Origin: Leptotrichia hongkongensis
GTDB taxonomy: Bacteria > Fusobacteriota > Fusobacteriia > Fusobacteriales > Leptotrichiaceae
NCBI RefSeq assembly: GCF_007990635.1
Contig: NZ_AP019846.1
Location: 124,001-188,000 of the forward strand
DNA: 64,000 bases
Direction: 5' to 3'
Shown here: piece after piece, positions 45,183 through 47,559 of the stretch
Position numbering within the stretch: the stretch's first letter is position 1
How the letters are laid out: every line of letters begins with the position of its first letter
Program-made: the position numbers and the translations under genes
The notes under the pieces: model-generated
The model's database searches: none
The model's input: only the letters and a program-made list of their open reading frames with translations
Told to the model about the DNA's origin: nothing

Positions 45183-45806
45183 ATGGCAGTTTTTGAATTG
45201 AAACATCCACTAATTGAACATAAACTTTCAAATTTGAGAAATAAAGATACAGACACTAAACTTTTTAGGGAAAGCTTAAACGAAATAGCAGGACTTATGG
45301 TTTATGAAGCAACAAAACATTTGCCGCTCAAGGAGATTGAAACAGAAACTCCTATTCAGAAAACCACTACAAAAGTTCTAGATAAACCAATAACGTTAGT
45401 TCCCATCCTAAGAGCAGGACTTGGAATGATAGATGGAATATTGCAGCTTCTTCCAAACGCAAAAGTAGGTCATCTAGGAGTTTACAGAAACGAAGAAACT
45501 CTAGAGCCAGTCTACTACTATGCAAAAATGCCTACAAACGTTGTTGAAAGTCAAGTTTTCGTAGTAGATCCAATGCTTGCAACAGGTGGTTCAATGATTT
45601 ACACACTTGACTATTTGAAAGAAAAAGGCGTAAAAAATATAACTGTACTTTGTATCATTGGTGCTCCTGAAGGAATAAAGAAATTTACTGAAAAACATCC
45701 CGATGTTGACTTGTACATAGCGGCAATTGATGATGGACTTAATGAACATGCGTATATCTATCCAGGATTGGGAGATGCGGGAGATAGAATATTTGGAACA
45801 AAATAG
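45183..45806 (+). CDS. upp: Uracil phosphoribosyltransferase
   Basis: Pyrimidine salvage enzyme that makes UMP from uracil and PRPP. The 207 residues start with [43 protein letters not shown], and contain [14 protein letters not shown], the PRPP-binding loop [21 protein letters not shown] and the uracil site [24 protein letters not shown], all diagnostic. ATG 45183 follows ACGGAG. A strong terminator follows. Confidence 0.97.
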
Positions 45807-45859: not shown

Positions 45860-46078
45860 CATATTATTATGTTTTTTCTTTTTTATTTCTGTAGGATTGC
45901 TCATTGCCGCAAATCCTTACCTTGCAATAAAGATTTATCCTAATAATTAAAATTATGGCAAGATTGCTACGCAATAACCTATGGCTAGTCTACGACATTT
46001 TTCTGCACTGACAAAAAACTCGCTATGCTCAAACAGTTTTGTCAGCACAGAAAAATGCTCCGACGGATTTTAAAGAGT
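45860..46078 (+). repeat. Structured intergenic repeat (family 2), copy 1
   Basis: A T-rich lead, then AGGATTGCTCATTGCCGC with AATCCT (first small hairpin, 45894-45917), a copy-specific insert, the conserved CCTATGGCTAGTCTACGAC (45978-45996), and a large hairpin: left arm 45996-46016 (ATTTTTCTGCACTGACAAAA) and right arm 46037-46057 (TTTTGTCAGCACAGAAAAAT), matching at 19 of 21 positions with a 20-nt loop, then GCTCCGACGG. The same design recurs at 57251-57408 and 63610-63745, with inverted fragments at 56302-56365 and 27549-27597. Confidence 0.78.
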
Positions 46079-46164
46079 AAAAATTGTATTTTAATTATTT
46101 AAAAATATTGAGTTGTTATTCTTTATTAGAAAAGTTTGTAATAAATTTCTTATTTAACCGAGGT

Positions 46165-46359
46165 TTAGTATAATAATAATTTTTTCTTTTCTTCAAAATA
46201 AAAAAGAAGCAGAATCTCAAAAATTCCACTTCGTTTTTCATAACATCTTCTTCCGCTTCCTGCTCTATCTTTTTCATATTCTGCCCATCTTGAAGGACTA
46301 AACAAACTGCAACTAACCACAGCTATTCACAAAATAGTAATTAATATCAACTTTTTCAA
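46165..46359 (-). pseudogene. Broken copy of the small lipoprotein gene
   Basis: Read from TTG at 46359, the frame starts LKKLILITIL, meets TGA at codon 11 inside the signal peptide, and continues IAVVSCSLFSPSRWAEYEKDRAGSGRRCYEKRSG before losing similarity where functional copies read NVYCKDRDGNR. It is the last unit of the array and its end is merged with a terminator. Nearby 46079-46164 shows nothing recognisable. Confidence 0.75.
46196..46232 (-). terminator. Terminator closing the lipoprotein array
   Basis: On the minus strand GAAG (46232-46229) and GAAT (46226-46223) pair with ATTC (46215-46212) and CTTC (46209-46206), followed by TTTTTTATTTT. Confidence 0.7.
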
Positions 46360-46392
46360 ACTCATCAACTCCAATCAACAAAAAATAATTTG

Positions 46393-46566
46393 TTAGTAAA
46401 CTCTATTTCCATCCCTATCTTTACAATAAACATTTCCATATTGCTTATAACATCTTTCGCCACTTTCTCTTCTGCTTTCAGTTACTCTGTTCCAATAACT
46501 TGGACTAAAAAGTTCGCAACTTACTGTAGTCAGAGCAAGAATTACAATCAAAAACAATTTTTTCAT
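46393..46566 (-). CDS. Small lipoprotein, array unit 5
   Basis: A 57-residue lipoprotein precursor: signal peptide MKKLFLIVILALTTVSC with Cys17 lipidated, then a 40-residue mature part, ELFSPSYWNRVTESRRESGE, RCYKQYGNVYCKDRDGNRVY. Two further cysteines (CY...YC) could form a disulfide. The start is the ATG of MKK; the upstream ATGGAG contains the GGAG binding site. Family unknown to me; function unknown. Sequence similarity to its four neighbours is close. Confidence 0.75.
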   Translation of the reverse strand: MKKLFLIVILALTTVSCELFSPSYWNRVTESRRESGERCYKQYGNVYCKDRDGNRVY

Positions 46567-46596: not shown

Positions 46597-46767
46597 TTAA
46601 TAACGATTTCCATCCCTATCTTCACAATAAACATTTCCATATTGCTCATAACAATGAACTCCTCTATCTGCTGCTTTTTGTCTTGCTCTATCCCACGAAT
46701 TTGAATCAAAAAGTTCACAACTTACTATAGTCAGAGCAAGAATTACAAGTAAAATCAATTTTTTCAT
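46597..46767 (-). CDS. Small lipoprotein, array unit 4
   Basis: A 56-residue paralogue: MKKLILLVILALTIVSC signal peptide, then ELFDSNSWDRARQKAADRGV and HCYEQYGNVYCEDRDGNRY. The mature N-terminal half varies most between units while CY..YGNVYC.DRDGNR is nearly constant. The 30-bp spacer to the next unit is almost identical between units, including the ATGGAGTTGATGAAT translation start region. Confidence 0.75.
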   Translation of the reverse strand: MKKLILLVILALTIVSCELFDSNSWDRARQKAADRGVHCYEQYGNVYCEDRDGNRY

Positions 46768-46797: not shown

Positions 46798-46971
46798 TTA
46801 ATAACGATTTCCATCCCTATCTTCACAATAAAAATATCCACTGCTAGTTCTATAACACTCTTCTCCTCTATTTTTTCTGCTTTCACTTACTTTGTTCCAA
46901 TAACTTGGACTAAAAAGTTCACAACTTACTGTAGTCAGAGCAAGAATTACAAGTAAAAACAACTTTTTCAA
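46798..46971 (-). CDS. Small lipoprotein, array unit 3
   Basis: A 57-residue paralogue starting at TTG (LKKLFLLVILALTTVSC), mature part ELFSPSYWNKVSESRKNRGE then ECYRTSSGYFYCEDRDGNRY. The upstream half of the mature region equals unit 5 while the C-terminal half differs (TSSGYFYC for QYGNVYC), as if segments had been exchanged between units. Confidence 0.72.
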   Translation of the reverse strand: MKKLFLLVILALTTVSCELFSPSYWNKVSESRKNRGEECYRTSSGYFYCEDRDGNRY

Positions 46972-47036: not shown

Positions 47037-47198
47037 CTACTTACTATATTCACAATGAACATATCCACTAGAATATCGATAACATTTTTCTCCTCGTTCT
47101 TTTCTATATTGTTCTGTTTTTTTCCACTCACCAGGATTAAGCAATTCGCAACTAACCACAGCCATTCCCAAAACAGTAATTAATATCAATTTTTTCAA
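47037..47198 (-). CDS. Small lipoprotein, array unit 2
   Basis: A 53-residue paralogue from TTG 47198 to TAG 47039-47037: LKKLILITVLGMAVVSC, then ELLNPGEWKKTEQYRKERGE and KCYRYSSGYVHCEYSK. It is the most divergent intact member and lacks the DRDGNR ending. GGAG lies 9 nt before the start. Its signal peptide and spacing match the broken terminal copy at 46165, so those two form a subgroup. Confidence 0.68.
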   Translation of the reverse strand: MKKLILITVLGMAVVSCELLNPGEWKKTEQYRKERGEKCYRYSSGYVHCEYSK

Positions 47199-47231: not shown

Positions 47232-47405
47232 TTAGTAAACTCTATTTCCATCCCTATCTTTACAATAAACATTTCCATATTGCTTATAACAATGAACTCC
47301 TCTTTCTTCTCTTCTTTCACGAGCTTCATCCCATAATTTGGGATCTAATAAACCACAACTTACTGTAGTCAGAGCAAGAATTACAATCAAAAATAATTTT
47401 TTCAT
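47232..47405 (-). CDS. Small lipoprotein, array unit 1
   Basis: The promoter-proximal unit, 57 residues: MKKLFLIVILALTTVSC signal peptide, mature GLLDPKLWDEARERREERGV and HCYKQYGNVYCKDRDGNRVY. Glycine at mature position 2 contrasts with Glu in the other units. ATG 47405 lies behind ACGGAGATG. A promoter with a long A-tract (minus strand) lies 30-75 bp upstream. The histidine kinase gene ends upstream at 47560 in the same direction. Confidence 0.75.
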   Translation of the reverse strand: MKKLFLIVILALTTVSCGLLDPKLWDEARERREERGVHCYKQYGNVYCKDRDGNRVY

Positions 47406-47435: not shown

Positions 47436-47465
47436 ATTATAACATATTTTTATGATAATTGTCTT
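47436..47465 (-). promoter_or_regulatory. Promoter of the lipoprotein array
   Basis: On the minus strand TATAAT (47441-47436), preceded by TG at the extended -10 position, with AAGACA (47465-47460) 18 bp upstream. The -35 merges with a 17-base A-tract. Confidence 0.65.
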
Positions 47466-47480
47466 TTTTTTTTTTTTTTT
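47464..47480. repeat. 17-base homopolymer tract (poly-T on plus, poly-A on minus)
   Basis: Seventeen consecutive T (plus strand) at 47464-47480. On the minus strand it is an A-tract immediately upstream of and overlapping the -35 element of the lipoprotein promoter, where an UP element would lie. Long homopolymers change length readily during replication. Confidence 0.95.
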
Positions 47481-47559
47481 GAAATTAGAATAATATTATA
47501 AAAAACTATTTTTAAACAAGAGTTTAATTTTTTTGATTTTAAAAGGGAGTGAGAATACA

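Follow-up and report, generated by a model that had tools for sequence, protein, structure and literature searches.

The window analysed here is the whole 64-kb stretch of DNA, positions 124001-188000 of contig C1 of the source genome (G000:C1:124001-188000; genome size 2,284,180 bases). On its minus strand, a series of short lipoprotein genes is preceded by a predicted promoter, a long run of adenines and a conserved upstream block. From upstream to downstream, the features are:

47481 to 47546, minus strand: upstream block, kept along with the promoter even beside a differing neighbour gene (ortholog comparison)
47495 to 47500, minus strand: upstream TATAAT, separated from the tract by 14 nt; a candidate second promoter or else a portion of an upstream element (promoter comparison)
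47464 to 47480, minus strand: A17 homopolymer (T17 on the plus strand), a proposed slippable contingency tract (sequence and ortholog lengths)
47460 to 47465, minus strand: -35-like hexamer AAGACA (promoter scan)
47436 to 47441, minus strand: -10 element TATAAT, TG-extended (TGTTATAAT) (promoter scan; the same in all six orthologous promoters)
47232 to 47405, minus strand: lipoprotein gene 1, 57 aa, lipobox VSC, with a GGAG ribosome site upstream (family alignment)
47037 to 47198, minus strand: lipoprotein gene 2, 53 aa, TTG start (family alignment)
46798 to 46971, minus strand: lipoprotein gene 3, 57 aa, TTG start (family alignment)
46597 to 46767, minus strand: lipoprotein gene 4, 56 aa (family alignment)
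46393 to 46566, minus strand: lipoprotein gene 5, 57 aa (family alignment)
46222 to 46365, minus strand: lipoprotein gene 6, with an in-frame TGA, a pseudogene remnant (family matches)

The lipoproteins of the array share an invariant lipobox cysteine followed by a tryptophan and two further cysteines (C17, W25, C39 and C48 of the alignment). Searches of Pfam returned no matches to them, and NCBIfam gave only signal-peptide matches below cut-off, so that the family could not be equated with a catalogued lipoprotein family in either collection. The source genome has 22 matches to the family, G006 has 34 and G009 has 18. Outside Leptotrichia the lipoprotein family fades out: two further genera of the same taxonomic family have matches to it, and these are weak. 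Downstream of the promoter, the first terminator-like site appears only at the sixth lipoprotein gene. Additionally, a dispersed intergenic repeat, CCGTCGGAGCATTTTTCTGTGCTG...GCGGCAATGAGCAATCCTAC, lies at 45900-46110 of the window and at L145, L147, L111 and L124. Whole or partial copies are found near several lipoprotein loci, and the repeat is possibly a miniature mobile element.

The minus strand of the promoter region reads TTTTTTATAATATTATTCTAATTTC-A17-GACAATTATCATAAAAATATGTTATAATACAAAAAAAGAATGTACGGAGATGATAAATATGAAAAAA. An earlier note had described a 17-base homopolymer at the promoter, directly abutting the -35 element and without an equal in the window. The run was found at 47464-47480, and the next longest homopolymers in the whole 64-kb window are three runs of 9. 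With a run-extension probability of about 0.23-0.27 at k=7-8, only about 1e-4 runs of 17 are expected per window, so the tract is not a product of chance; it is an uninterrupted repeat of a single base far beyond chance length. In the promoter scan of the region, AAGACA-N18-TATAAT with a TG before the -10 gave 10 of 12 matches and was tied best among 20 sites. The first two bases of AAGACA are the final two A's of the run. Thus, the adjacency to the -35-like hexamer holds, while the relation is an overlap of two bases rather than mere contact. The tract lies in or beside the predicted core promoter of a gene whose product is probably surface-exposed, judging from its lipobox. On the plus strand the same bases form a T-run that might be read as the tail of an intrinsic terminator. 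This is extremely improbable, as no G+C-rich hairpin was found ahead of T17 and there is no plus-strand gene nearby, the last convincing one, encoding uracil phosphoribosyltransferase, ending at 45806.

Long A-tracts are associated with this lipoprotein family throughout the genome. Pattern searches of the entire source genome yielded exactly five tracts of at least 15 A's (A17, A19, A16, A16 and A17), the window tract included. Each of the five precedes a gene of the short-lipoprotein family by 58-91 nt and lies on the coding strand of that gene; the probability of this under random placement is about 1e-16, a post-hoc figure that nevertheless describes a very large effect. For tracts of at least 13 A's, 6 of 8 in G006 and 7 of 8 in G009 lie upstream of family members, and co-location amounts to 18 of 21 across the three Leptotrichia genomes. 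The reverse does not hold: many family members (in L144-L148) lack a tract, a point against the switch reading.

The length of the tract differs between related genomes even where its flanks are conserved. At the window locus, the six orthologous tracts measure 17 (G000), 16 (G003), 23 (G004), 16 (G006), 15 (G009) and 20 (G011), with flank identities of 0.96 upstream and 0.93 downstream. The end of a sensor-kinase gene adjoins the locus in G000, G003 and G004, while G006, G009 and G011 have a different neighbourhood and yet retain the promoter block from about 47546 onwards. Other ortholog groups show the same behaviour (19/14/21; 16/20/15; 16/11; 16/17/15/16; 17/19/18), as does that of a non-lipoprotein gene (11/17/16/12/14). 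Over eight groups, with lengths from 11 to 23, the tracts are unequal in 40 of 42 orthologous pairs, a comparison between species in which individual lengths may be off by a base or more because they are read from assemblies. Flank identities average 0.88-1.00 over the groups and are mostly 93-100%. The invariant length across strains that would have spoken against a switch is thus contradicted at the between-species level. A search for strains of the same species yielded only one relative among genome contigs, and a pattern scan of viral contigs yielded none. As a side observation, the orthologous lipoprotein promoters L041 and L018 have rebuilt tract regions, CCCT-A10 in one and A15 with an A-rich insert in the other, and their sequences suggest frequent expansion and collapse of the tract region.

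Such variation could in principle be an artefact of assembly or sequencing, with a run that is real but short or with homopolymer miscalling taken for variability. A single-base indel, located in a short run of T's, sets mutL of the source genome apart from its congeners and may be an error of this type. However, the tract has at least 15 bases at the orthologous site in 6 of 6 genomes compared, and the control, consisting of A/T runs of 5-7 nt taken from these promoter regions, is almost invariant, with equal lengths in 143 of 148 aligned comparisons (control runs of 8 were unequal in 3 of 3). In addition, the bases that border the tract likewise set L090 and L088 apart from the other orthologs. 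An artefact is therefore very improbable.

Loss of mismatch repair was considered as a driver of tract variation and rejected. In the source genome mutS is intact, and congeners with intact mutL carry equally long tracts, so loss of repair is not needed to account for them. The mutL gene of the source genome (G000:C1:2176146-2177995; L155, L157) is split in its linker by a frameshift, the single-base indel mentioned above, while 11 of 12 congeners have mutL in one open frame and G002 is also irregular. The frameshift reflects one of two things, a mutator genotype or an error of the assembly. With an intact mutS and with mutL in place, albeit in an apparently frameshifted form, there is no need to assume extreme slippage.

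The position of the tract relative to the downstream -10 is not fixed. The distance is 22 nt at the window locus and 3, 12, 33, 36 or about 40-50 nt in paralogs, so that, depending on the locus, the tract falls within the spacer, covers the -35, adjoins it or lies farther upstream. In the paralogs L050, L071 and L074, 3-6 nt separate the tract from the -10, and the tract of the variable lipoprotein (vlp) genes of Mycoplasma hyorhinis is probably similarly close to its -10. Extended -10-like elements follow the tract in several paralogs, with a summed score of 81 against a shuffle mean of 68.5 (0 of 300 shuffles reach 81).

The spacing on the other side of the tract is more regular. In most paralogous tract promoters, 12-14 nt separate a TATAAT from the tract that follows it, in the arrangement TATAATNNNNTTCTAATC-A(n), and zero-mismatch copies of TATAATNNNNTTCTAATC occur only at tracts among the matches listed. 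The upstream TATAAT (47500-47495) could serve as a promoter in its own right, and its conserved spacing means that the tract might sit in the transcript and not upstream of the promoter. If it were the working promoter, transcription would start about 5-7 nt before the tract, the A-run would form the 5' end of the transcript, and length would act through promoter escape, reiterative transcription or RNA stability rather than through an UP element. The constancy of this spacing, compared with the 3-50 nt to the downstream -10, and the restriction of TATAATNNNNTTCTAATC to tracts are consistent with such a start. So are L139 and L141, in which TGGTATAAT is followed by 14 nt, A14 or A22 and then the ribosome site, an order that requires the tract to be in the leader. 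At the window locus, in contrast, the upstream TATAAT has neither a TG extension nor a -35, whereas the downstream one has both TG and a -35-like hexamer, and an upstream start is unlikely for the array. Within the conserved upstream block there is also a palindrome, TTAAAC-TCTT-GTTTAA (47527-47512), a possible operator. The upstream motif was separately considered as a genome-wide operator and rejected, since its reversed control is matched at least as often when two mismatches are allowed.

Many bacteria have promoters that are stimulated by A-tracts lying ahead of the -35, so the tract could have a static role, as an A-rich UP element or bend on which promoter strength depends, with a length that drifts neutrally and without switching. 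The tract-free promoters within the lipoprotein family would fit such a role. However, a static UP element does not require 15-23 unbroken A's; interruptions would be neutral and yet are absent. The tract-bearing genes, moreover, form a set of surface and defence genes. Based on these considerations, a purely static element seems quite unlikely.

Overall, the A17 tract is probably a slipped-strand contingency element of the promoter, conferring length-dependent lipoprotein expression of some kind. The phase-variation reading proposed in the earlier note gains support from the genome-wide co-location of long A-tracts with the lipoprotein family and from the hypervariable lengths inside conserved orthologous promoters. 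According to this model, slipped-strand mispairing would occur in the promoter of the five-gene array, with A's gained or lost by replication slippage. Because the tract ends at the -35 position of the TGTTATAAT promoter, a change in its length would alter UP-like DNA beside the -35. The core promoter would also be displaced relative to the conserved upstream block, both in distance and in helical phase. The altered promoter would then change transcription of the entire array in steps. A mechanism based on an UP element or phasing is plausible by analogy with sabA of Helicobacter pylori (PMC4081817). A tract of this kind stands at five loci of the lipoprotein family in the source genome, each of which would be free to vary independently, and a population could thereby come to contain many different lipoprotein combinations. 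We infer slippage within strains, an effect on transcription that is graded, like a rheostat, and not strictly on/off, and a benefit from surface diversity.

Lipoprotein genes are not the only ones in the genus with such tracts. Autotransporter-like, dynamin-like, glycerophosphotransferase and putative defence genes are also preceded by tracts of A11-A23. Proteins of these kinds are typical phase-variable classes. The autotransporter-like genes, so called from their N-termini because Pfam gave no matches, include L139 (A14) and L141 (A22) and, on the opposite strand, L080, L091, L100, L101, L112, L116, L121 and L133. In the latter eight, roughly 143-288 nt separate the tract from the beginning of the divergent gene, on whose coding strand it reads T, and the divergent genes have a common N-terminus, KxFAKRxKDFKYTDSAL. 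A dynamin-like GTPase gene (PF00350) is preceded by A23 or A17, and a CDP-glycerol glycerophosphotransferase gene (PF04464) by A18. A gene for a 338-aa protein without Pfam matches has a tract of A11-A19, and its PADLOC match to PDC-S26 is weak (E 1.6e-5). This gene is found at G000:C1:791075 (L056, L153) and at L067, L077, L094, L117, L123, L131 and L136; eight Leptotrichia genomes have the tract next to the -10 of this gene, which makes the gene a candidate for a phase-variable defence function.

These genes could be imagined as members of a single genus-wide stochastic regulon, with a reusable TATAAT-N12-A(n) module ahead of genes for lipoproteins, for autotransporter-like adhesins and for wall or glycan enzymes, as well as ahead of defence-like genes. 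The tract itself would be transcribed and would act via transcript slippage or escape at the RNA start. Such a regulon is distinctly improbable, and we know of no promoter tract for which this mode of action has been established. If the contingency-promoter model is correct, a common oral genus carries independently variable promoters over surface lipoproteins as well as autotransporter-like and defence-like genes, and differences in surface make-up between isolates would be built in. Counts of tract length in sequencing reads that already exist would allow a direct check of the set. A full-text literature search, with subscription journals mostly outside its scope, found nothing relevant on phase variation in Leptotrichia or Fusobacteria.

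Systems of this type are already known from sabA and vlp, and it is the family-wide deployment in Leptotrichia that appears to be new. In H. pylori, T/A tracts adjoining the -35 tune transcription according to their length (PMC4081817). As at sabA, a contingency promoter of the rheostat type, the Leptotrichia tract is a single-base A/T run of hypervariable length adjoining the -35 of a surface-protein promoter (PMC4081817). The likeness extends to the recurrence of tracts at several surface genes in differing positions, that is, in the spacer, at the -35, upstream or downstream of the -10, and the same scatter of positions relative to the promoter is seen in H. pylori (Table 2, PMC4081817). 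In contrast to sabA, Leptotrichia belongs to another phylum, the Fusobacteriota, its coding strand carries poly-A instead of poly-T, and its promoter serves an array of lipoprotein genes, not an adhesin gene. The effect of length on transcription was shown in H. pylori and is a prediction for Leptotrichia. In M. hyorhinis, every variable lipoprotein gene of the vlp family has a poly-A tract in its promoter (PMC10502178), and Leptotrichia likewise has a family of lipoprotein genes in which several loci each have a promoter poly-A tract of their own. Unlike the vlp lipoproteins, the 53-63 aa Leptotrichia proteins do not show size-variable repeats. The window tract, moreover, lies upstream of the spacer between -35 and -10 and not within it, and homology with vlp is not expected.
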